Assembly: GCF_965363235.1 (NCBI RefSeq)
Contig: NC_134842.1
Location: forward strand, 5,483,112-5,547,111
Direction: 5' to 3'
DNA: 64,000 nucleotides
DNA from: Mytilus galloprovincialis
Taxonomy: Eukaryota; Mollusca; Bivalvia; Mytilida; Mytilidae
In this document: piece by piece, positions 1,905 through 62,475 of the stretch
How the letters are laid out: every line of letters starts with the position of its first letter
Numbering within the stretch: position 1 is the stretch's first letter
Notes under the pieces: model-generated
Database searches by the model: none
What the model saw: only the letters and a program-made list of their open reading frames with translations
What the model was told of the DNA's origin: nothing
Translations under genes and position numbers: made by a program

Positions 1905-2150
1905 ACTGCCGAACACTCAATTGAATTTGATGTGACTGTCATACAAGTGAGAGATTTAGTTTGCTATAAATCCAGGCTCAATCCACCATTTTCTACATAA
2001 GAAAATGCATATACCAAGTCAGGAATACAGCAGTTGTTATCCATTAGTTTGATGTGTTTGCGCTTTTGATTTGCCGTTTGATTAGGGACTTTCCGTCTTG
2101 AATATTTCTCGTGCAGTATTTTTGTGATTTTACTTTTTTTTTCAATCTCA
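1905..2150 (+). repeat. Interspersed repeat R1, copy 1
   Basis: This is the first of about seven copies of one mussel repeat, called R1 here. Typical pieces are GACTGTCATACAAGTGAGAG, CCACCATTTTCTACATAAG, ACCAAGTCAGGAATA and GATTAGGGACTTTCCGT. Its distal part overlaps, in antisense, the last 30 codons of the Fuseless-like gene. Confidence 0.8.
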
Positions 2151-5100
2151 CCTTTACAGATTTGATACTTCCAATGATATCATTAGGGAGTTGGTACCAG
2201 TTCCTTATTTCTCCGTCCATTAACAAACCTCCACTTCTGCATGAGCATGTACAGGCTAGAATGATAAAGCTTCCAACACATATACATGGCAGTCCTATAT
2301 CTGACCCAGACATTTCTATGAGCATGTCTACTAATATCCAGTAAGTTCTCCACATGGCAACATTACCAATTCCAGCAATCGTAAAAAAAATATCCTGTAT
2401 TATTAAACTGATGAAATAGTGAATAGTTTTCAATTTTTTAACGTTAGCCTCAAATAATAATGATACAATTTCTATAAAAATCTGCACGCCTATAGATATG
2501 ACAGCCGACCATATCAATGTCTTAGTTTTATCATCCGGGTATAAATTCAAATCAAACAACTTCCATGTGTTCCGCCAAAACAATATAACTAAACTCCATA
2601 ATATGGAAATGGATAAGATAATATCCAATACAAATGGCAGCTCCTTTTTAATCTATAAAGAAAAAATAAATCCGTTGATGCAAGAGTAGCAAAAACTAAA
2701 ATCATAATAATATCGAGGCAAAATTCAAACGAAAAGTATCTAATCAAATGGCAAAATCAAAAGCTCAAGCACATCAAATGCATGGATAACAACTGTCATA
2801 GTTCTGACTTGGTACAGGCATTTTCTTATGTAAAATATGTTGGTTAAACCTGGTTTTATCCTAGCTAAACTTCGGACTTTAGCAATGCGTGCACTATTGT
2901 TTCTGTAGTGCCTAACAAGATTTTGTGAGGTCGACAGATATATTTTGACTTAATATGTTGGATTAAATTTAAATGTTTGCAGCTTTAGCTTATGTTTTTA
3001 TGGTGTTTTTGTTGACTTATAGACGTTTTTCGATAATTAGAAACATGTTTATTTTCTGTTAAGACACGCAATCTGTTTATCTTTAGTAGTGCTTAAAAAA
3101 TATGTTTCATTGTGTCTCTTCAAAATAATACCTTTTTGTCAAAGAATAAAAATTATGATTTATAAATCGTCAAATTTATGAAAAATGAGCTATTATACTG
3201 TGAAACCATTTTATTCTGTTCGTAATAAAAGTAATAACTGCCAAATCGAACCTTTCATACCTTTTGTTTCATTGTAACAAAATTAACACGATCTCGTCCA
3301 GTGCCTAGTTTAAATTATGGTTATTAAATAACTGTACATGAACATGTAATATGAAAGGTAAATGAATATGTTTTCATACACAAGATGTTAGTATGTAAGT
3401 ATATCCTGGGACTATTTTACAAACTTAGTATAATAGTCCCAATTTATTTCTTAAAGGCTAAATTGTTCACATTAGAAACTTTCAACACAGTTGAGTTATA
3501 ATAATAAAGATTATAACACAGTGTTGACTGCTGTACCAATATTTGTGACATTTTTACCTATTAGGTAGAATTTTTTCCTCACAATTTGTTGCCCATACAA
3601 TAAAATTGAATGCGAGAATCATACAATTGAGATGTTTAGCTAGCTATAAAACGAGGTTTGGTCAGCCTGTAATAAGTCAGGAATATTACAGTTTTTTTCC
3701 AATTCGTTTGATAAGCTTTTGGTTTGTCATTTAATAAGGAATCTAATTCCCCTTGGAGTTTGGTATTTTTGTTAGTTAACTTTTAGGACCCACAAACCAA
3801 AGTAGGTTGGTAATTTCTTAAATATCTTTTAACTTCAGATCTTTAGTTGCTGTCCTTGTCATAATTTAAAACATATATTATTGTTTGTGAATACTACCAC
3901 GCTTAACACAGTGTTAGAGGTAAATGGACGTGGCAACGTTGTATTGTAGTCCTGTCATGTAATGTTGTCATTTTAATGTTATATTTAACATTGTCATAAA
4001 AGCGGGAGGTTTGGCTAGCCATAAAATCAGGTTCAACCCACCATTTGTTTCTTAAAATGTCCTGTACCAAGTTAGGAAAATGACCATAATGATTGTTATA
4101 TTATAGTTCGTTTCTTTCTGTGTTGCATTTATCTTTTTTTTTAAAGAATGTCACAGTTATAGTCCAGTCAATCTAGCATAAATTTGACCCTAACCTTGAA
4201 GTAATTGCAATAGAAGATTTTAAAATTTTAATCTTTAGAATTATACCCCAAATATACACAGAAAAAAAGTCCCATAAAATCTTACTTGAGGAAAACTAAA
4301 ACATAATGATTTTGAAATTCCTATGGAGATTTGCATTGATATGGGAGATGACTCTGCGAAAAAAGGCAGAAAAATCAATAAAAATTGATACAAAATTATA
4401 ACTTTACCGCTTCTATTCAACAATTACGATATTTTATCTCTCTTTAGAATTAAACAAACAACTCTGAAGGTGTTTTCATATCTTTTATCAAGCTACAACG
4501 TAGATTTCATAATTCATTAGTTGACCATTTATTAGATTTTTCAGCATGTCAAGGTAACGAAATTCAAATTGAATAAAACAAACTATCTTTTTGTGGTTTA
4601 AAGTTTCTTTGAACAAGTGAGATGCTGCACAAATATAATTTACAGATATAAACAATACCAAATATTCACATTATTTTTTTCAAAATGCTCACAAAGCCAT
4701 AAATTTTCAATTTCTTTAATGAAAAAATATATATATCCATTACACTTCGTTTTGTTTTTACATGTCATGACCAGAGGATTATATAACATAGTCAAATACT
4801 TACTTATGACCCCATCAAAGTATCATATTTTACATGAATTTAAGAAAATCAACCAAAAACTGACAAAAAAGACTCATTTTTGCGGAGCTATCTCCCTTTA
4901 CAATGTTAATTTCCATAAGAAATTAAAAATACTAAATTTTAGTTTTTCCTCAAGTTAGATTTTATGGGACTTTTTTCTGTGTATATTTGGGGCTAAATGC
5001 TATAGATTAGAACAACATATGTTCTGTTGCAATTAGTTTGAGGTTCAAATTTAGTTCGACTGGACTATTAAACCTCTTTTCCGTAGCAAAAATTTTATAC

Positions 5101-8100
5101 TGGTCCAATATGCAACAAATTTTATTTTTAATGAAATTAAATATTTTTAAATAAAATAATTAATCGAACAAACTGAAAAAATATGAAAATCTATTAACCA
5201 AATTGTGATGAAACACTTGTATTGGATCAAATTATTTCTGAATTTAGAAATTTATCATTTTATTGTGGTGCTCTAGTGTACTGTCGTGGTGAGATGGTGT
5301 CCGTTTTAATTCTGTGGTTTACATATTGTAATGTAGTGTTGCATTATTTATTTATGTATATCTCTGTCCAGAGTGTTCTTGCGTTTATTTGTAAAGTATA
5401 TCTCCGTCCAGAGTGTTCTTGCGTTTATTTGTAAAGTATTCCTGTCATGTAATGTTACCATTTTGGCGGTATTTGTAACATTGCTTTATAAATTTTTAGA
5501 TAAAGTTTTAAATTTGTGGAACAGCCTACTTGACCATTTCAGGACTGAAAACAGGTTTTCTCAATTTAAGAGCTTTGTACTATTTTGAAATGGTTCAAAA
5601 TGTTGATGTTCTGCATGTAGATAAGCTTTTTCATATTTTAGAAGTTGCTCTAACATGCTAGTATGCCTTAAATGTTTCCATTTGTGCTATATATTTAATT
5701 TTAGTTGTGCTTAACTTTAAGTTGTGCTTCAGTTTTGACATGTCTAGATATGTATTTTAGTAGTGCTTTGCATGTATTTCAATGTGCCTGTGCTGTTATA
5801 TATCTTGTCTCCATATTGTGTGATTTAATGTTGGGTTTATGTTATTATATTCGGTAAAAAGCTCTTAAGAGATTATGTTTGTATTGTTATGTTTGTATTG
5901 CAGCTGCTACTCTGTGGAACAGCCTTTATTGTGTACTGTCGTAAATTCATTGGAGATGATGTCCGTTTTAATTCTGTGGTTTACATGTTGTAATGTACTG
6001 TTGCATTATTTATTTATGTATATCTTTTTCCAGAGTGTTCTTGCGTTTATTTGTAAAGTATATCTCTGTCCAGAGTGTTCTTGCCTTTATTTGTAAATAC
6101 TGTGAAACTGTTTACTCGCGTAGTGGTATTAACCATATGTGGATTCTTAAAAATTCTAAAGAACTTCTAGACAATTTTAAATCTCGGTCTTTTTCTGAAG
6201 ATAGTTCTATCAAAACATTTGATTTTTCAACCCTGTATACCACCATTCCCCATGTGAAATTGAAAAATCGCCTAAAAGAAATAATCCACAATGCCTTTCA
6301 ACATAAAAATGGTAGCATACGCTATAAATTTATTACTTTGGGATTTCATAAGGCATATTTCGTTAATAGTGACAAACAAAAAGGTAAAACATGCGCTACA
6401 CAAAAGAACAAGTGGTCAGTATGCTGGAGTTTCTTATCGACATATTTGTTGAGTTTGGAGGTAGACTTTTTCAACAAATTGTCGGCATTCCTATGGGAAC
6501 GAACTGCGCGCCTCTCCTTGCTGACCTCTTCTTATTTTCATATGAATCGGAGTTCCTTCAGACACTTGTCAAAAACAAGAAGATCAAAGAAGCCAGGTTA
6601 TTTAATTTCACTTTCAGATATATTGATGATGTTCTTTCCATTAACAGTCCGAACTTTTCTGATTGGGTTCCATTAAAATATCCATCAGAACTAGAAATTA
6701 AAGAGAAAACAGACACGGCTTCCTCTGCCTCATTTTTAGACTTATACCTCGAATTTGACATACCCAGTCATCTTAATTAGTACCAGAATCTATGACAAAC
6801 GAGACGATTTTGATTTTGAAATTATCAATTTCCCCCACCTTAGTAGCAATATATCAACTTCACCTGCATATGGAAAATACATTTCCCAACTTATTCGGTA
6901 TTCAAGAGCTTGCAGCTCCTATTCAGACTTTGTAAAACGTCACCAATGTCTGAGCAGAAAGTTGATGAACCAGGGGTATGTCAAAGAACGTCTCGTCCTC
7001 TTTCTAAAAAAGTTCATCGGAAGATACCCAGAACTTGTTGATAAATATTCCTTCACAAATAATACACGATAGTCTTGAAGTATAGATTTTGCGTACTGAC
7101 GTTGTTTATCGTTATATTATTCTTTTATTTGTCTTTATTAATATTACTTTTACTATTAAGTCTGTTTTTTTTAGATATCCTTTTTGACTTAACTCTGTGC
7201 TTATGTATTCCATCATACTTTGAACGACAAAATTATTTTATGATGTGACTCTGTACCTATGTATCTTGTGATACTTCGAATGACAAAATTATTTTATTTA
7301 TTAATAGTACTTTTACTGTTGACCAACTTTTTTGTGATATACATTTGACGTGACTCTGTACTCATGTATCCCGTCATACTTTGAACCACACTATTATTTT
7401 ATTTATTATTACTTTATACTGTTTAGTCAGTTTTTGTTATATCTATTTTGCGTGACTGTATTTATGCATCCCGTCATACTTTGAACGACAAAATTATTTC
7501 ATGTCTACCTGTGCGAATTTCAAACGCGCAATTTTACACTAGTACTCAAAACCCTCCTTCCTTGGTGGGTGCATTTTACATACTAGACAAATAAAATCGT
7601 ATAATATAATCAAAATGAGGATGTTATTTTGATGTGTGCTTCTTCGCTACATCATTTGTTGTTTTCATAGTGATTAATATGATAACACAATGTTGACTGC
7701 TGTACCCCTATTTTTGACATTATTGACTATTGTGTCTGTTTGTTTTGTTCAAGCATCGGTGACAATATAATGGAATGCGACTGTCATACAAGTGAGAGGT
7801 TTAGCTAGCTATAATTAGTTATCAAAAGTACCAGGATTATAAAATCAGGTTCAATCCATCATTTTCTACATTTGAAAATGCCTGTACCAAGTCAGGAATA
7901 TGACAGTTCTTGTCCATTCGTTTTTTATGCGTTTTGTTATTTGATTTTGCCATGTGATTATGGACTTTCCGAATTGATTTTCCTCCGAGTTCAGTATTTT
8001 TGTGATTTGACTTTTTATATGTAAGCCGAATCAAAAACTTTCGTATTCGTATTCGTATTAAATGGGAGGTTTGGCTAGCCATAAATCCAGGTTTTATGCT

Positions 8101-9165
8101 GTCTTTTTTTTTTTATTTTGCTTTGTTTCCTTTAGTCATTTTTCGTTTTTTTCAATAGCATTGTCAGTTTGAATTTGAATTATGAGCTATGGTATCTTTG
8201 GTATCTTCTGTCTCTCTTTCATATTAAATAAATTCATCATAGATACCAGGACTAACTTTAGTATATACGCCAGACGCGTGTTTCGTCTACTAAAGACTCA
8301 TCAGTGACGCTCGAATCCAAAAAAAGTTAAAAAGGCCAAATAAATTACGAAGTTGACGAGAAAAATTCCTAAAAGTTTTGCCAAATACAGCTAAGGTGAT
8401 CTATGGCTGAGGAAGAAAACCCTTAGTATTTCAAAAAATTTGTAAACAGTAAATTTGTAAATATGACCATATCAATGACAAAAAGTGCTGACTACTGGGC
8501 TTGTGATACCCCCAGTGATTGTAAATAAACTCATCATAGATACCAGGACTAACTTTAGTATATACGCCAGACGCGCGTTTTGTCTACAAAAGACTCATCA
8601 GTGACGCTCGAATCAAAAAAGTTAAAAAGCGCACAAATGTGGGTGATATGAACTTTCTTAATTGATAACATATGGCAATAAAACCTACCACTTTGCTAAA
8701 TATCATCGGCTTGATAAAGAACTTATCTTTGCGTCGATCGTATCCATTCAGATATGGCATAACTATTACATTCCTAATGCTGCGTAATACAACTAGCAAT
8801 GCAACAACAGGGAGGAGTAATATCAATGGTGAAATATCAGCAGTATAGATGTCTATGAAATTCCACAGTCCTCTCCAATGACAAACATCAAGAAAAGCCC
8901 AAAGGAACGCGATCACTCGTGAAAAGATTAAATACAAAAGTATGTGTTTATCCTGAAACAGTTTTGTAAAAGAAAACTGTAATAAAGCAAGAAGACATAT
9001 TCCTATAATACCACACGATAAAGATAATCCATTGCTTAATACGGGATCATCTGGATAAATATATCTATCTTGAATATTCCATGCTGTATTCCAGAACCCA
9101 ACAACAAAAAATGTTAAGAAAGCATTGATGAATGCATTTCCAAGTTTCACAATTGTCTTCATCAT
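2044..9165 (-). CDS. Fuseless-like eight-span membrane protein (2 exons)
   Basis: Exons are 9165-8689 (ATG start) and 2652-2044, both in phase 0. The donor is GTG|GTAGGT and the acceptor is a T-rich tract ending in TATAG. The product is about 361 residues. Four hydrophobic segments lie in each exon, eight in all. A motif W-x2/3-W-x3-D recurs four times (FWNTAWNIQDRYIYPDD, HWRGLWNFID, FWRNTWKLFDLNLYPDD, MWRTYWILVD), so each half repeats the other and each half is itself doubled. This matches my memory of the Fuseless family (in fly, a presynaptic protein affecting calcium-channel placement), which is expanded in bivalves. The last 30 or so residues are encoded by antisense R1 repeat. The roughly 6-kb intron holds an RT element, a MITE and a retrozyme dimer. 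Family and joining of the exons are inferred; a role here is not known. Confidence 0.6.
2735..2870 (-). repeat. R1 repeat, inverted copy
   Basis: Reverse complement of R1 (CAAATGGCAAAATCAAAAGC, GACTTGGTACAGGCATTTTC). With copy 1 it forms inverted repeats around exon 2 of the Fuseless-like gene. Confidence 0.8.
3480..3790 (+). repeat. R1 repeat copy
   Basis: Diverged R1 with GTTGACTGCTGTACC, TTTAGCTAGCTATAAAA and AAGTCAGGAATA in order. Confidence 0.7.
3945..4090 (+). repeat. R1 repeat copy, partial
   Basis: GGTTTGGCTAGCCATAAAAT and CCTGTACCAAGTTAGGAAAA are R1 pieces, preceded by CCTGTCATGTAATGTTGTCA, a sequence that also occurs near 5445. Confidence 0.7.
4160..5067. mobile_element. Harbinger-like MITE, TTA duplication
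   Basis: Long imperfect inverted repeats run inward from both ends. They start TAGTCCAGTC and include an arm of about 60 bp with CCCCAAATATACACAG and AAGTCCCATAAAATCT, mirrored near 4930-4993. The element is flanked by TTA at 4157-4159 and 5068-5070. A TTA 3-bp duplication is typical of PIF/Harbinger. The two frames inside (4241-4423 minus, 4617-4958 plus) show no transposase motif, so it is non-autonomous. Confidence 0.65.
5275..6098 (+). repeat. Direct repeats 655 bp apart upstream of the RT element
   Basis: About 165 bp at 5275-5440 recurs at 5930-6098 (GTCCGTTTTAATTCTGTGG, GCATTATTTATTTATGTAT). Each copy itself contains a doubled 39-bp piece with CCAGAGTGTTCTTGC. The second copy runs straight into the RT element and may be its leader. 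Confidence 0.75.
6098..7075 (+). mobile_element. Penelope-like reverse transcriptase element, broken
   Basis: The plus strand encodes recognisable RT blocks in order: FDFSTLYTTIPH (motif A region), GIPMGTNCAPLLADLFLFSYE spread over 6480-6550, the catalytic box FRYIDDVLSIN near 6618-6650, the thumb-side block ASFLDLYLEFD, then SSNISTSPAYGKYISQLIRY and the C-terminal KKFIGRYPELVDKYS. The family is non-LTR and Penelope-like by its motifs. The reading frame changes more than once, so the copy is dead. No endonuclease part was recognised next to it. It lies inside the Fuseless-like intron on the opposite strand. Confidence 0.75.
7090..7505 (+). repeat. Tandem tail behind the RT element, about 4 units of about 100 bp
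   Basis: Diverged tandem units share GACTCTGTACTTATGTAT, CCGTCATACTTTGAACGAC and AAAATTATTTTATTTATTA. Position directly behind the RT frame suggests the element's 3' tail (inference). Confidence 0.75.
7670..8100 (+). repeat. R1 repeat copy, long
   Basis: The longest R1 copy: it begins TGATAACACAATGTTGACTG, continues through GACTGTCATACAAGTGAGAG and TTTGAAAATGCCTGTACC, and ends near 8090 with GGTTTGGCTAGCCATAA. Confidence 0.8.
8267..8310 (-). ncRNA. Hammerhead ribozyme, type I, copy A
   Basis: The minus strand reads GCGTCA-CTGATGA-GTCT-TTAGT-AGAC-GAAA, then a short helix III region, the pre-cleavage GTC, and TGGCGT. Both core boxes (CTGATGA and GAAA) are intact. Helix I pairs GCGTCA with TGGCGT in six pairs including two G-U. 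Helix II is four pairs with a five-base loop. Helix III is very short, as in Penelope and retrozyme hammerheads that favour dimers. Confidence 0.8.
8564..8607 (-). ncRNA. Hammerhead ribozyme, copy B, core altered
   Basis: Same fold as copy A with the CTGATGA box intact, helix II GTCT/AGAC and helix III ACG/CGT. The second core box departs from GAAA, so cleavage is doubtful. Confidence 0.7.
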
Positions 9166-9774
9166 GAACTTTTTCTTCTAGTAATATTTTCTCGTCCTAC
9201 TACATATGTGTTTCAAAAGTTCAACTTTGAAAAGGCTTAACCATTAATGTTTCTCGAACTGCATCAGTTCACGTTAACAAAAAAGACAAAAGGTTTAATG
9301 AGCATACGATTGTATAGTCTGTTCCAACTTAGGTAAATAGTTTGTAAGTGTTTTCCAAATATTCAGGTTGTTTTATTGTATAGCAAAATTATAAAAAAAT
9401 CAAATATTTTTTCTCAGTAATTTAATATCAATTCAATCAATTAATTCAACATACATATACAGCAAATAACTAAAAAATGATATTGACTTATAAAAGTGTC
9501 TTTGTTTTCATTAGTTTCTGAATGATTTTCATTTATACACCGAGTACTCTTTTATTGCAAACTTTATTTATTTAATAAATTAATTAATTTTATAAATGCA
9601 TTGCATAAGGAAATCAATTAAGCACAGAAAAGTAAATAAGGGCACTACATGTAAAATGATGAGAAATACAATCTTTTATATAAATATCAAAAGTAACAAA
9701 ACTTTTAATATATTTGCAAAGTCACAATTAACAATAATTCACTTCATTGTTCAGTTCAAATGGAGAAGATGGGA
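9166..9774. other. Upstream region of the Fuseless-like gene
   Basis: AT-rich sequence with no recognisable coding signal. It should hold the promoter of the gene at 2044-9165 if the ATG at 9165 is the true start, but I see no clear motif. Confidence 0.4.
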
Positions 9775-9783
9775 TGTTGCGAC

Positions 9784-9893
9784 GGAAAAAAAGTCACAGG
9801 AAAAAAAGTCACAAAACCTCTAGGAAAAAAAGTCACAGGAAAAAAAGTCTCAAGAAAAAAAGTCACAGGAAAAAAGTCACAATTAATAAAATT
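9784..9893 (+). repeat. Left iterated terminus of the MULE
   Basis: Six boxes of (G)GAAAAAAAGTCAC, one with AGTCTCA and one followed by an AAACCTCT interruption, ending GTCACAATTAATAA. Confidence 0.9.
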
Positions 9894-10007
9894 ATTTGAA
9901 AGAAGTATATAAAATGTTTTTTAAGAAGTATGTTGGAATGCACATGACAAAAGTGATTTTGTATATCAGCTGTATGAAATAAATAATTTAAAAAATTGCA
10001 GTTTTGT

Positions 10008-10116: not shown

Positions 10117-10690
10117 TTAAAATTTATATAGGTAAAGCGCACATCGATATTAACAGATTTCGTTTTATTTATGGGTTAATAAAATAAAAAAATATATTCT
10201 TTTCATCATTTTTAAAAAAAAATAAATACACTAAAAAAAATGATAATAGTATTAAAAGTGTAATAATTTATGTTTTCTTTTTCAAAACAAACTCTTAAAC
10301 AAACAGGATAAGCCATTTGTTTCCTTTTCATTCATGATAAGCCCTAGTTGTTTTTCATGGGTAGGGCTTCCTTCCAAAAGAGGAAGTGAAAGGTCTACAA
10401 AAAAGGGAAAGGTGCCACAAGAAGCCACTAATTAATCTCAACAGTCACTGTCAATAAATGTTGTAATTACATAATTATTGTTAATGGGGATGCTTTGTTT
10501 GTTTAACATGTAATTGAAGGATTCTCATGATATTGGTAAAAACACAGCTATAGAAAAACAAAAATCACAATAACATGTGGTCAAACCATACCATAGACTT
10601 TCTAACTTTGACTCAAATTAAAGAAAATGTATGACTTCATTTACTTTTCTATATAAGAAAAAAATAATTTCAAGTGTTATTAAATAAAAT

Positions 10691-12142
10691 ATGGAAGTCA
10701 TCAAGAGCAACAAAGGCGGGTCCAAACTTTGCTACCAGGGGTACATGTACACCAAGCATACTACCAGAAAGACAGTACAGTGGTGGAAATGTGTGAAGCG
10801 ATCCAGCACTGCATGTAAAGGGTCCATTACAACTTCTCTGCAGAATGAAAATCCAACTCCTGGCCAGCCACACAACCATGATCCAAGTGATATTAGCATA
10901 AAGTACACTAAGTCCAGGTACGCAATGAAAGAACAGGCTGCTCTCACCAGAGACAAACCAAGCCAGATCTTCGCCCAGGTTGTTTCAACATGTGAAGATG
11001 ATGTGCAAGCAACGATGCCCAGAGAAGAGAATTGTAAACGCACCATGCGCTACCAGCGTCCAGCACCACCTGTTCCCCATTTCTTTGCAGATGTCACACT
11101 GCCAGCAGAATTCACCATTACAACCAACAACCAACAGTTCCTACTGTATGACAATGGACAGAATGCTGAGAACAGAATGTTGGTCTTTTGTAATCCTGAC
11201 AGTTTAAGACGTCTAGCTGAAGCCCATACCCTTTTTATGGGTGGTACTTTCTCTGTAGCTCCACATCCTTTTAAACAGCTGTACACCATCCGAGTACCTT
11301 TTAAAGATGTTACAGTCACCACAGTGTATGCTTTCTTGCCGAACAAGAATCAAGATACATACAGAGAGTTATTTCAGTCATTGGTCGACAAATGCCAAGC
11401 CAGCCACCTACAGTTAAATGTTCAGACTGTGGTAACAGACTTCGAAGATGGCGTTCTACGTGCAGTGTCGGCAGTATTTGGCCGCCATATCAACAACCAG
11501 GGATGTTTCTATCATCTTACCCAAGCAACTTGGAGAAAGATACAGAACCTTGGTTTGGTTCCCCACTACAAGATGAGCGATGACTTCCGCCTGTTCTGTG
11601 GTATGATGGACGGCCTTGCCTTTCTGCCTGTAGCTGATTTGCCAAATGGTGTCCACCTGCTAAGAACTTTGTGTCCAGATGACCCACCAGAAGCAGCTGA
11701 ACTTCTTGATTACTTTGATGCAACCTATGTAAGTGGCAACATGTGACGTAACCCAGCACCAGGTCAAGGTCTTCGTTTAGTAATGCGACGCACTCCACCC
11801 ATGTTCCCACCAACTATATGGAATGTCCATGACGCAACAGTAAACGGTGATTCAAGAACCAACAATGTATGTGAAGGTTGGAACAACAAATTCTTCAACT
11901 TAGTAGGTTATGCCCACCCATCAATATGGAGAGTAGTAGAATGGTGCCAGAAAGAAGAAGAACCAGTGAGAACCTTGATACAACAAGACGCTGTAGGCAC
12001 CCCGCCAGTTAAACGGGTCCAACAACGTTATGTCCAACTTCAACTAAGACTTCAAAACTTGTGCAGAGACTTGACATCAGGCAACAAGACCATTGCAGAA
12101 TTTCTCAGGGGTGTTGGTTGGAACATAAGACTTAACCATTAG
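10691..12142 (+). pseudogene. FLYWCH zinc finger and MULE transposase, interrupted once
   Basis: Residues 1-65 form a FLYWCH-type finger (YQGYMYTKH, WWKC, TACKG, HNH). The MULE transposase domain follows from about residue 180: GGTFSVAPHPFKQLYTIR, VVTDFEDGVLRAV, the GCFYHLTQATWRKIQ block, then NNVCEGWNNKF and HPSIWRVVEW. One in-frame TGA at 11744-11746 splits the frame into 351 and 131 codons; otherwise it stays open. The first catalytic block, usually DGTF, reads GGTF, so one of the three acidic residues is missing; the second (TDFED) and third (CEGW) are present. It is therefore probably inactive. ORF start is the ATG before VIKSNKGG. Confidence 0.85.
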
Positions 12143-53400: not shown

Positions 53401-56400
53401 CTGGAATCCACTGGTACTTATCTGAATGAAAAAAGCATAAAAATCACCCGAGAACAAGCTTATGCATGTTATGCATTACAATATTTTAATTTTACTTAAT
53501 GATGGAACACTGGTTTTTCCATGAAACAACGGGCAAACAATCATACACGATTTTAAATAATTACATGTTCCGTGCAAACAATCACAGACGATTTGTTACC
53601 AGTGTTTCATTAAATGTTTTTAAAGAGTCACAAAGTTCTCTTGGTAAATGGTTTATCTAAAGCATTCCAGGAACTAACTGTCTAGTTATCAACGACTTCA
53701 TATATATTACCCGGTGTTTTACATAAGCAGTTTGACAGCACTTCATTTCCAATCAATGGAAATGATATCTGTTCTAACATGGCGTAGATATTATTCAAAT
53801 ATTCATCACTGTATTTCTGAAAAAAAAAATATGTAACTTTCTGTATTGTTTTAAGTGATACATGTTTTTTATATACATTTTGAAACAAGTGAAACTGCAA
53901 GCTACTGCTCCATGATGATACACCCACGGCAAGTGGATAATTTTAATAGTGCAAAAATATGTTTTTGGCAAATTTAAAAAAAAAAATCAAATATCTTGAA
54001 AAGGAGCTCCACTTTTTTAGCTTATTTTTAAGTAAAGCTCTTCTGGGTTGTGGCATCAATTCAAAATTCTTGATTTATTCAATTTCACCTCAGTACATCC
54101 TGAAAAGCATTTTATAACATTCAATGTATCAGGTGCTCGGTATTTTTCCTGTTGCATACCCACCATTTGAAATGTTGTTTACCTGTTGTTTCTTTTCTTT
54201 GATGTCTTTAATGAGGAACTTGAGAACATGAAACCTAACATCATCATAGTCTAAATACTCCTGGAACCTTGTTATTAAATCTTTGTGGTTGTTATCTACA
54301 GATATCAGTCCTCTCATTATTTCCTATGAAAGAGATAACAATTAATCCTATTAACTCATTGGCCCCTGTTGACACGGATATGCATCATTTTTACTTTTGA
54401 TTTGCTCCCTGGTGACGCATATGTGCGTCTGAATCCGCCATTTTGTATTTCCCGAATGACGCATAAAGCGTCATTTTGGTTGGGTCCCATTTTTGTTAAA
54501 CCTCTTCTGATTGGTTCCTAGGAGCATGGCTTTAGAGTCACATGATTCTCTAATGAATATTAATGAGATTTAACACGTGGCACAGTTTTCATTCATAAAA
54601 TACACATTGGAATTTTACTACAAAGTCATCGATCTGTGAAACGTAAACAATGGCCTTGTGAAAATGAGAAAAGGGGACGTTGCAAACAATGTTTTTCTAA
54701 CTAAGGGAGAAAAGATGTTAAAATTAAACGTAATGGATGTCATGTGTTTCTTTGTCTGAGCTGTTTCAGAGAATTTCACAAGAAATAATGGAGAAATATA
54801 TGAAAAATTTTTACAGTACAAAACTACGATAGAGTGCAATAAACAATGAAATAAAAATAAAAGTAAGAATGTATTAATTTTTATTTTACTTTATTTATAA
54901 AATATAACATATTATTGAAAAAAAAACAAAAAAACACAACAATTATATCTATTTGATAAATATTTTTAATTATTTTTTTTAAATACACCCTATTTACAAT
55001 CTATGGCAGCCATTTTCCTTCAGGGAGAGAGATACTGCTGTTGAAAATCTTATCAGGAATACAGTGCAGTTTTCTAAAAATAGATTCAGGGGGCAATGAG
55101 TTAAATCAATTTTATCAGTAGTCCAGACTTGGAATTACTACTGTAAATTCAGAAATTATTGCCATGCTTTTATTATTGCCAAAACAATTTTCAGGGTTAT
55201 AATTGCAATAATGAAAACTCACATTTTGAAATTTTTTATATGAATTAAACAGGATTTTTCTCAATATCTCAAAAATTTAAATTGCATTTTAGTCTAAAAT
55301 GACAAAATCATTATAATAAATGTAAGCAAAAACTTTTGAATTTACAGTATTCAATAGAAGTTAAAAGCCCCTTCTTAAATCCCTTAGTTCATCAGTGTTT
55401 TTCAGTGGGGTTGATGTTGCTTAATCTTTTGGTTGTGAACTACTGATTGTCTCACCTGCATTTGTCTGTTGGTCATTAGTACAAGTGTCAAAGAGACAAC
55501 TCTCCCTACAAGAGACAAAATTCTCTGTACAGGAAAATTATATTGTACTTAATTGTCACACAATTTACCTGAAATCTGTGTATTGGAAAATTTGACTGTT
55601 TAGCTGTAATGACTGTAATTGGGTTTTGACCTTCTGCTGTTACCAACTTCATCAATGTACTTAATGATAGCTCCTAAAACAGATAAAAACATTTATCAGT
55701 ACACAGCTATTTCGTAACCTTATACTATTTATGCAATTATCATTTAGATTTAGTGCCCTTCATCCTCTTTTTCAGTTCTGCAGTAGTCATTTGCCTATTC
55801 TTAGATTTTGAGATAGTATTCCTGTTATGAGGATAGTTATTATAATTTGACTTTATAACATAGAGTATATTTTTCTTTGAGCACATACTGTAAAAGCAGA
55901 AATTTTCGTGGAGGATTTAATTTCGTTTTTTTTGTGGAAAGAATATATCCACGAAATTAAAAACCCCACGAAAATTTAACCTCCATATAAAACCACTTTC
56001 AGTTTAAGGAAACCACGAAATTAAATCCCCATGAAATCTTATAGAAAGACAAAATCACGAAATTTTAACCCCACGTAAATTAATGTTTCTACAGTATGTA
56101 CTAAAATTCAAGGTTAATCATGATTGAAGTCATGTCTCTTATAGGAAAGGCATGTTTGTTGTCATATCAGTGTCTTTAATAATATAAAATAAGTTGCAGT
56201 ATGATTACAAGTGTGACAAATCTCCATTGAAGAACTACACTGTACAGCCTTCAACAAAGACAGTATGATTACAAGTGAGACAAATCTCCATTGAAGAACT
56301 ACACTGTACAGCCTTCAACAAAGACAGTATGATTACAAGTGAGACAAATCTCCATTGAAGAACTACACTGTACAGCCTTCAACAAAGACAGTATGATTAC

Positions 56401-59400
56401 AAGTGAGACAAATCTCCATTGAAGAACTACACTGTACAGCCTTCAACAAAGACAGTATGATTACAAGTGTGACAAATCTCCATTGAAGAACTACACTGTA
56501 CAGCCTTCAACAAAGACAGTATGATTACAAGTGTGACAAATCTCCATTGAAGAACTACACTGTACAGCCTTCAACAAAGACAGTATGATTACAAGTGTGA
56601 CAAATCTCCATTGAAGAACTACACTGTACAGCCTTCAACAAAGACAGTATGATTACAAGTGTGACAAATCTCCATTGAAGAACTACACTGTACAGCCTTC
56701 AACAAAGACAGTATGATTACAAGTGAGACAAATCTCCATTGAAGAACTACACTGTACAGCCTTCAACAAAGACAGTATGATTACAAGTGAGACAAATCTC
56801 CATTGAAGAACTACACTGTACAGCCTTCAACAAAGACAGTATGATTACAAGTGAGACAAATCTCCATTGAAGAACTACACTGTACAGCCTTCAACAAAGA
56901 CAGTATGATTACAAGTGTGACAAATCTCCATTGAAGAACTACACTGTACAGCCTTCAACAAAGACAGTATGATTACAAGTGTGACAAATCTCCATTGAAG
57001 AACTACACTGTACAGCCTTCAACAAAGACAGTATGATTACAAGTGTGACAAATCTCCATTGAAGAACTACACTGTACAGCCTTCAACAAAGACAGTATGA
57101 TTACAAGTGTGACAAATCTCCATTGAAGAACTACACTGTACAGCCTTCAACAAAGACAGTATGATTACAAGTGTGACAAATCTCCATTGAAGAACTACAC
57201 TGTACAGCCTTCAACAAAGACAGTATGATTACAAGTGAGACAAATCTCCATTGAAGAACTACACTGTACAGCCTTCAACAAAGACAGTATGATTACAAGT
57301 GAGACAAATCTCCATTGAAGAACTACACTGTACAGCCTTCAACAAAGACAGTATGATTACAAGTGTGACAAATCTCCATTGAAGAACTACACTGTACAGC
57401 CTTCAACAAAGACAGTATGATTACAAGTGAGACAAATCTCCATTGAAAAACTACACTGTACAGCCGTCTACAAAGAGCTAAACCCATACTACATAGTAAG
57501 CTATAAATTGTTTTCTATTTGTTTTGAGCTGACTTATCAAACCACACATATTGTTTTACTTACTTTAACTGTAGCATGTTTACACTGTAATAATTCTACA
57601 AGTCTTTCATAAACATCACTATATCTCTCATTTAACCAGATCTTATATTTCCCTTCCTTAGACTCTGTAAATAACAAATAGTATTAGTAGGCATTAATGA
57701 ATCAATACAGAATGAGATCATGTGCTTTTAAACATGGATAATTAGTGATACATCTAACATTATAAACTGTCGTGATGAATCGCACAGATCCACAACACTA
57801 CACGAGGAGCTGTCGGCAACATCACATTATTAATGTAGGTGAAATATTTAAGTCCTTAGTAGGATGCTTCATACTAAAAACTTTTTGTTCACCAGTGGGG
57901 TTTTCCATTAGTGCATTTTTAATTCCCCTCACAAAAAGCATTGGTCTTGTGAGAGGTTTAATACACATGTATATAATTATTGATGTATATATGTTAATGA
58001 GAAAATAACAGTCATGTACAGTGCTAGGGTTTACAATAGGATATACTTTTTTAAAACTATTTTACAGTGACTTGACTGTTAGTGTTGCTCTCCACCATTT
58101 GCAACTTATTCAAAATTCTGACCAAATGGCAATTTGTTTTTTAAAATCAAACTGTTCAACTGGTCAGAAAATTTGAACCAACTGCTGTAGAAAACCACAG
58201 CCAAGTCATGAAAGTGCAAGGTGATATAATAAAACATACTTACAATGCTATAAGACTTTAATTCCACTTTAATGATGTTGTGACTAAAGTAGTCTATCGG
58301 TTTGTATGGTTATATTATAGTCATTACCATGCATAAGGTGAACTTGTTATTTTGAATTGCTATAAAAATGTCCAAACTAAGCTTTCATTTAGTTTTTCTT
58401 TGAAAAAGTATTCTTTATTCATAAGAATTAGACATTAAGTAAATTAAAACATTTCATGTTCAGTAAAATATGTGTCAAATTGCAATATGTGTGTAGGAAG
58501 TTTCCATGGGGAGATAATATTTTTTTCTTTCAAAAAGTCTTTATTCAAAATCATAATGTTTTAGGTTATCTCCTCATGGAAACGTATCAATAGCATATTC
58601 TTATTTCACTGATTATATGATGTTTTATTTAAAATGATATCCAACTCTAAAATTGAATATAGAATACTTTTCCAAAGAAAAACTATATAAAAGCTTAGTT
58701 TGGACATTTTTATAGCAATTCAAAAAAACAAGTTCACCTTTAGCATGGTACTGACTATAATATACATGTACCTATACAAACTGTTAGTCTGACTTTGTCA
58801 CAACAACAAAAAGTCTTATAGGATTGTAAGCATGTTTTATTTTATCACCTTGCACTTTCACATTTTGACTGAACAATTTGTTCAAAATTTTGACAAGTTG
58901 ATCAATTTGGTTTAATAATTCAAATTGCAATTTGGTCAAAATTTTGAATGATTTGCAATTGGTGGAGAGCAACACTAACAGTCAAGTCACTGTAATAGTT
59001 TTTCTTATGTTGTACTGTTACAGACAAGAGGGAGTTTATCATAAAAAAACATCAATAACTCTGCCACATCCTGTATAATCTTGTATGTGTCTGTCCAAAG
59101 TCAGCCTGAGCCTGTAAATCAGTGGTTGTGGTTTGTACATCATATTTGTCTTTCCTTTATTGATTTATATATAAATTAGGCTGTCAATTTCTCTTTTGAA
59201 TGGTTTTACATTTGTCATTTTGGTCTTTCATATTAAACTGACTACATTGTATGTGGCACAAATTTTGCTCATTGTTGAAGGCTTTAGTAACCTATAGTTC
59301 ATAACTTTTATGTCATTTGGTTTTCAGTGAAGTTTTGGGCTTTAGAACTGTTTCTGTAAATCAGACAGTTAAATATGTACAGGTAGAAGTATTAAACCTT

Positions 59401-60939: not shown

Positions 60940-62475
60940 TTTAGCGTCTTCTGTTCAGTCCCCAGGGTTCTGCTGTTGAAAGTTGTCTTATGCAGGCTTC
61001 CTCCGTTCTTAAGCGAATGTTGACGTCTGTTGGTGTCTTTGTAATGCCTGTTATTGTTACGTCGTGCCTACTGTGATTAGGTAACGTGAAATGTATTGAT
61101 ACTGGTTTGAATTTATTTTCCGTGTTAATGTCCTGAAAATGTCCCCTGAATCGTTTTTTTAAAGTGTTTCCAGTTTGTCCTACATATTGTAAGTGGCAAA
61201 TTCTGCACTCAATCATGTATACTACATTGTTTGTAGTACATGATATGTCGTCAGTAATTTTTATTTCATAGTTGTTAGCATGGCTTTTTGCCATTTCGGT
61301 TTTTTTTCATGTGTTTGCAAAGGTAGCAATTATGCCCACACGGCTTGCTGCCTTTCTTTCTGTATTTTGGTTTAATGTCGCTCTTGACTAGCATATTTCT
61401 TAAATTGACATTTCGATTATATGCTACTGTGTATTTGTATTTGGTGAGGTTCATGGTGTCTGGTAATCTGTTTAAAATATATTTCCGATTGGTTAAGATT
61501 TTGATATTTTTTCCGTTTTACTATTGTAGGTTGTAACAAATGGAATGATTTGGTTCTGTACTTGGTCATGTTGGTTCCGTTTTTCTATTAAAAGGTCACT
61601 TCTATTTATAGATTTGGCCTTGGATATGGCTAGTTTTATGATATTGTCTGGGTAGTTTTTTTCCAGAAATTTTTCACGCATTCTTTGTGTGTGGATTTCA
61701 AAGTCTTCTGTTTTCTTGTAAATTCTTCGTATTCTTAATGCCTGACTGTACGGGATGCTTCGTTTTTGGTGTGGTGGGTGGTTAGAGTTATAATGTAGGT
61801 AAGTATTCACATCTGTTGGTTTAGTGTATAGTGTTGTATAAATTGTTCCATCTTTTTCTTTAATCACGGTGGTGTCAAGGAAGTTGATCCGCTCATTATT
61901 TTTCTCGCTGGTGAATTTTATTGTTGGGTGAAACTCATATAGAAGGAATTAAGATCCTCGCTTGAGTGAGGCCATATAAAGAAAATATCATCAATGAACC
62001 TCCACCATACAAGTGGTTTGAGGTCCTGTGTCTTCAAAAATTCTCTCTTTAGTTTGTTCCCATGCTGGTTCCCATTATTTGTTGGTAGTATTTGTCATTG
62101 AATCTAAAGCAGTTTTTTGTAGGTATAAAATGCATGAATCTTAATAATATCCAAGTGGAGGGTTTTTTGGATTCTCGTTTGTCCAATTGTTCTTTTGCGG
62201 CTAGAATCCCTTCTCTGTGTGGTATCGTTGTATATAGAGATGAAACGTCTACTGTAGCTAGGATGCTATTTGGTGGGATTTGGCTTACATTCAGATGATG
62301 ATGTACAAGGGACAGCAAGGCCGAGCGCCGGAAGAATTGAGCAACAGGTGAATTTTTGGACATTTTAAAAGTTTTATTAACCAGAATTAAATAAAAAGGT
62401 TTCCTTTCAAACTAACTTATATCTGGTTGTCTGCACAAATAATAGACACAGAGACAATTTATTTAAAAAAATATT

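Follow-up and report, generated by a model that had tools for sequence, protein, structure and literature searches.

The window analysed here is a 64,000-nucleotide stretch of the genome of the mussel Mytilus galloprovincialis. Within it, the Fuseless domain (PF15993) is divided between two minus-strand open reading frames (ORFs), and a retrozyme copy sits in between (Table 1). As judged from the sequence, the exon with the first Fuseless piece likely ends at 8689, with a putative donor GT at 8688; the Pfam match of this piece extends slightly beyond that putative end. The retrozyme lies ~60 nt past the putative donor and is sense to Fuseless transcription. With PF15993 pieces on both sides and on the same strand, its placement in an intron of a Fuseless-like gene, as given in the initial annotation, was upheld, and the host is probably a mussel gene. 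The same intron contains, on the opposite strand, open frames (5972-7072, plus) whose YIDD motif we take to be that of a reverse transcriptase (RT); they gave no Pfam match at 0.001. Elsewhere in the window there are an open frame encoding FLYWCH and MULE transposase domains (10688-11746, plus), a 64-bp tandem unit repeated 20 times with 99% matches (56197-57476) and a fragmented Penelope-like element (PLE) that carries a GIY-YIG domain, PF01541 (60290-62411, minus).

Table 1. Positions of the retrozyme copy, its parts and the flanking Fuseless pieces in the window
Feature	Position	Strand	Evidence
ORF with Fuseless piece 2, next exon	2047..2652	-	PF15993, E 6.8e-21, profile 165-294
Retrozyme copy, ~1.3 family units (unit 1-365 with deletions, then 1-109)	8226..8629	-	BLAST against the 365-bp unit from locus L003; same chain in L001
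3' tail beyond the final cleavage site; terminal TTTATTT, as in other sub-family 1 copies	8226..8272	-	Sequence; common 3' end
Downstream type I hammerhead (copy A)	8267..8310	-	RF00163, 28.8 bits, E 2.6e-4
Hairpin remnant after the inferred start point, outer stem left	8491..8517	-	Sequence; 36-bp deletion at unit 120-155
Upstream type I hammerhead (copy B)	8564..8607	-	RF00163, 26.0 bits, E 0.0022
ORF with Fuseless piece 1	8584..9177	-	PF15993, E 3.6e-26, profile 8-177

Two hammerhead ribozymes and the element that carries them

The initial annotation had described two hammerheads in the same orientation, with helices I-III, 297 bp apart. Indeed, cmscan of 7000-10000 matched RF00163 (Hammerhead_1) at two sites, both on the minus strand and each with all three helices aligned to the model, and a 99-bp repeat in the element (95% identity) has a start-to-start spacing of 297. 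The assignment to type I also held, with clear E-values at both sites; the best Rfam model for the element is Hammerhead_1 (type I), hence not a plant-type (type III) hammerhead. Both scores fall below the RF00163 gathering score of 34 bits, and a whole-window Rfam scan at the gathering threshold returned zero matches, as did scans of five other loci holding the retrozyme family. Because five intact ribozymes in locus L084 themselves reach only 32.5 bits with RF00163, sub-threshold scores are a property of the family under a strict cut-off. A covariance match to the downstream copy, the check that had been asked for, was thus obtained, sub-threshold (28.8 vs 34 bits) but clear. The paired hammerheads are real. 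They are not a product of chance either, because a 39-nt pattern of the ribozyme core had 16,344 + 16,633 = 32,977 matches (<=3 mismatches) in the genome searched (1.385 Gb, 331 contigs) and the reversed pattern, used as a control, had 0.

The two ribozymes differ in their state, much as first described. In the downstream one both core boxes are intact, and helix III has one mismatch. The upstream one reads GACAAAA for GACGAAA in the model, a change to A of the base that we take to be G12 in hammerhead numbering. G12 is important for hammerhead catalysis. Cleavage on the minus strand is predicted between 8570 and 8569 in the upstream copy and between 8273 and 8272 in the downstream copy.

The claim of a retrozyme dimer was likewise supported, by the two hammerheads together with the ~1.3 family units found by BLAST. 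The 297-bp unit stood in part: the spacing is exactly 297, but the usual unit of the family is 365 bp, from which four deletions (BLAST gaps of 36, 15, 8 and 10 bp) removed about 68 bp. The largest of them took out the inner part of a hairpin. Rare variants are common to the units of the window copy in 2/5 comparisons. The window locus is one integrated, damaged copy of a mussel-type non-LTR retrozyme, an ordinary representative of a kind already known (PMC7229834). Inside its Fuseless intron, the copy is probably dead, a single cut being the most that it could undergo. The initial annotation proposed that the pair could free a 297-nt RNA from the Fuseless-like pre-mRNA; this is unlikely, because it requires cleavage by both ribozymes and G12 is missing from the upstream one.

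The two ends of genomic copies

A first look for the window element genome-wide gave 4,607 candidates, 51 among them listed as matches. We numbered the 365-bp unit so that position 1 is CTTTTTAAC, which puts cleavage between 61 and 62. The family comprises two sub-families with different tails. Arrays reach ~7 units; most copies are dispersed and shorter than a dimer. In loci chosen by the core pattern, copy length ranges from 77 to 2,526 bp (median 201.5), and 8/52 copies could hold two ribozymes. Units of one array have rare variants in common in 270/1007 comparisons, against 14.8 expected, in a count from which 17 loci were removed because their copies overlapped or had flanks in common. 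L084 alone supplies 128 of the 270 (128/221); without it and three rows of a tail minisatellite in L019, the count is 114/717, and 14/37 arrays have no shared rare variant. Later unequal exchange between units could also yield shared variants. The L019 minisatellite is a 37-bp tandem array resembling the retrozyme 3' tail (L019:2780-3466), which lies directly after an older retrozyme copy and has grown from a retrozyme tail.

To locate copy ends, the unit was mapped on 90 loci. This gave 143 chains, 127 with enough flank and 99 after merging of common flanks; 76 non-redundant copies with a mean identity of at least 85% were kept, and the 23/99 chains below this value were dropped. After end extension, the 3' ends of 65/76 copies fall inside 12 nt (unit 104-115), 43-54 nt downstream of the cut (KS against uniform for all 76 copies, p 1e-31). 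The remaining 11 copies end at unit 15, 60, 68, 95, 98, 100 (three copies), 121, 164 and 213. The common 3' end was found in both samples, in 52/62 copies from pattern-chosen loci (L021 on) and in 13/14 from similarity-chosen loci. The 5' ends are scattered over unit 2-358 with no clear pile-up (KS against uniform, p 0.11 for the 65 copies that share the 3' end). The pattern-chosen sample carries a bias, in that unit 30-68 had to be present: it lacks short copies whose 5' end lies at 31-109, and every copy in it necessarily crosses the cleavage site. A 5' pile-up at unit position 1 was an artefact of dropping BLAST pieces shorter than 25 nt and was gone after extension. The copies thus have the common 3' end and scattered 5' ends of retrotransposition of the non-LTR type.

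Genome-wide counts of the tail were then compared. The tail 26-mer had 9,503 + 9,364 = 18,867 matches (<=2 mismatches) and the same 26-mer with the next 14 unit bases had 1,690 + 1,629 = 3,319 (<=3 mismatches); therefore, roughly four in five tails stop at the 3' end point. Single 26-mer counts showed no step at the 3' end, with 19,140 for unit 78-103, 18,717 for unit 116-141 and 25,159 for unit 290-315. For a single family, the near-equal counts for 78-103 and 116-141 would oppose a fixed 3' end; we explain them by sub-family 2, which shares 116-141. Among 56 chain pairs with a common 5' flank, the 3' flank is common too in 51, and in the other five the shared 5' flank never reaches the junction in both chains. 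Matches resembling target-site duplications reach at least 6 nt in 12/65 copies, against 4.3 expected, and at least 8 nt in 0/65, a weak excess, confined to 6-7 nt, that tells against the reading proposed below. In metazoan non-LTR retrozymes such duplications exceed 4 bp where they occur. No base preference was seen at the junctions beyond ~4 nt, within which the unit's own next bases are enriched. A 20-nt tail piece outside any retrozyme, in L008, was taken for a strongly truncated copy.

Start point, template and helper enzyme

The tail of sub-family 2, GGTACCTTTGATAACTAT, is unlike that of sub-family 1 and is not T-rich. Nine of 15 sub-family 2 ribozymes in the loci stop just past AACTAT and one stops six bases earlier; the other five are internal and continue into CCACTGGGTCG or a close variant. 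This stop point directly precedes (TT)ACACCACTGGGTCGATGCC, the counterpart of which in sub-family 1 is ACAACCACTGGGTCGATGCC. Both sub-families stop right before the same AC-rich segment and hairpin. In a circular fold prediction for one unit, bases 107-114 are mostly unpaired and lie beside the hairpin at 115-173. Across 60 aligned copies (one deleted copy of 61 was left out), 92.8% of cells in the hairpin region are paired, against at most 53.5% when the structure is slid, a control that favours the hairpin because the structure was derived from one of the sequences. Double-sided changes occupy 13 cells, against 3.3 in shuffles; nine of these cells are C-G for G-U at one pair in sub-family 2-like rows. 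Pairs carrying double changes number four, no more than shuffles give (94/500 reach four).

The pattern of copy ends suggests target-primed reverse transcription begun inside circular RNA. Transcripts of copies with two working ribozymes would self-cut, and a host ligase would close the released unit into a circle. A borrowed RT, with the nicked target as primer, would start at a fixed internal point ~48 nt past the cleavage/ligation site, before the conserved AC-rich segment and hairpin, and would go round the circle until falling off. Such a course would produce a common 3' end and scattered 5' ends and would make multi-unit copies possible. A linear monomer running from 62 to 61, with the start at 109, would give 48 nt beginning exactly at 62. 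By exact matching, tails starting at this self-cleaved end number four genome-wide; a control point five bases further along gave 20, this point being A+T-rich and its list seeming to include some duplicates. Copies beginning at unit 62 are thus rare, which argues for a template that was ligated or never cut. An uncut linear transcript is disfavoured, because there is no clear 5' pile-up, 5' flanks are not carried along and arrays have shared private variants; an uncut multimer is a possible template.

A fixed 3' end with variable 5' ends would be equally expected from a SINE, that is, from a linear RNA that ends naturally in the 3' tail and is copied from its 3' end by a LINE with ordinary 5' truncation, the hammerhead playing no part. 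The T-rich tail of sub-family 1 would suit such an origin. However, no 5' pile-up of the transcription-start kind was seen, arrays of up to ~7 units carry common variants, and sub-family 2 stops at the identical place with a tail that is not T-rich; we consider a SINE-like origin unlikely. An RNA-free spread of tandem units, through unequal exchange and transfer at the DNA level, would account for the arrays and for the likeness of units inside them, but most copies are short and dispersed, few could hold two ribozymes, and exchange is not expected to leave copies that agree in their 3' end and vary widely in their 5' end, which makes this origin highly improbable. Equally hard to credit is a host role, in which the intronic dimer would free a 297-nt circle or tune Fuseless splicing through intron cutting: its sense orientation close to the putative donor and its intact downstream core would fit, but the upstream ribozyme lacks G12, the copy carries four deletions and it is one among tens of thousands.

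Taken together, the best joint explanation, and one that we regard as likely, is a mussel-type retrozyme whose copies are made by an RT started inside circular RNA, with the window copy dead. The narrower proposal, that a Penelope-type RT copies closed RNA circles directly, with a fixed AC-rich start beside the hairpin and rolling round the circle, is put forward tentatively; we would lean slightly against it. If true, tens of thousands of copies would preserve in their ends the trace of target-primed reverse transcription on circular RNA, and the job of the hammerhead would be making the circle.

The 404 bp of the element (8226-8629) hold no RT and GIY-YIG coding region of the kind that defines a PLE, and the only GIY-YIG seen in the window is at 60941-61306. 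No helper RT was identified among the Penelope-like and tail-sharing candidates searched. A search for an abundant element with the exact 21-nt tail found none, with 22 places in which all five preceding bases differ, against 5,294 with the retrozyme bases. No hammerhead was found in pieces of two PLE copies, covering both ends of one (L091, L092) and the interior and 3' end only of the second (L093, L094), nor in the surroundings of the window's own PLE. GIY-YIG elements are common in the genome: of 1,001 candidates, 150 were scored and 147 of these matched. Several GIY-YIG matches lie two by two on opposite strands within ~0.5-7 kb, as at C13:29482393-29489131 or C8:49535925-49541044, an arrangement that points to Penelope-like elements inserted as inverted pairs. 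Just past one PLE end (L092:667-760), a match to the sraA RNA family scored 42.8 of 56 bits, below its gathering score.

Relation to known retrozymes and Penelope-like elements

In the excerpted text of Cervera and de la Pena 2020 (PMC7229834), M. galloprovincialis is reported to carry ~5000 ribozymes in repeats of ~350-390 bp, with self-cleavage in vitro and abundant circular RNA. By description, the present family agrees with these non-LTR retrozymes in its type I hammerhead, non-coding nature, unit size, thousands of copies and two similar ribozyme families; unlike them, the window copy has a 297-bp unit and one mutated ribozyme. Metazoan non-LTR retrozymes in general are short non-coding repeats of a few hundred bp and low G+C, present as dimers to multimers, and the 365-bp unit and the arrays of the present family suit them in length and tandem arrangement. 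The kind of element is therefore known, and what is new is the shape of its genomic copies. A fixed 3' end with scattered 5' ends was not found described for the mussel retrozymes in the excerpts of that paper. Among the open-licence literature, represented mostly by titles, no title states that copy ends reveal reverse transcription begun internally on an endless template, an absence that is unproven. Plant LTR retrozymes share a non-coding, hammerhead-flanked unit and a circular RNA intermediate with the mussel family but, unlike it, have type III ribozymes, LTRs with a primer-binding site and polypurine tract, and 4-bp target duplications (PMC7229834, excerpts).

As far as the excerpts of the 2020 papers go (PMC7229834; PMC7761336), the helper RT and the question of the circle as template were left open there. 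The retrozyme authors favour PLEs as helper, on other grounds, and in the excerpts of PMC7761336 the repeats are described as having no motif that betrays the helper. In the Anolis PLE PAc, according to the excerpted text of Frangieh 2024 (PMC11167929), reverse transcription begins inside the RNA, in an AC-rich stem-loop. The mussel retrozyme resembles PAc in that an AC-rich stem-loop downstream of the hammerhead marks the internal RT start (in the retrozyme, the proposed one), genomic copies extend beyond the hammerhead into a tail, and units occur in tandem. The two differ in that PLEs encode RT and endonuclease and the retrozyme does not, and in the distance of the RT start past the cut, ~85-92 nt in PAc vs about 43-54 in the mussel retrozyme; in vitro, uncut RNA is the main substrate of PAc (PMC11167929, excerpts). 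Against this background, the copy shape favours a template without ends, pins down where synthesis would start and points to a hairpin that may serve for recognition, which makes the question of helper and template directly testable; copy ends as a record of internally started reverse transcription are the part worth following.
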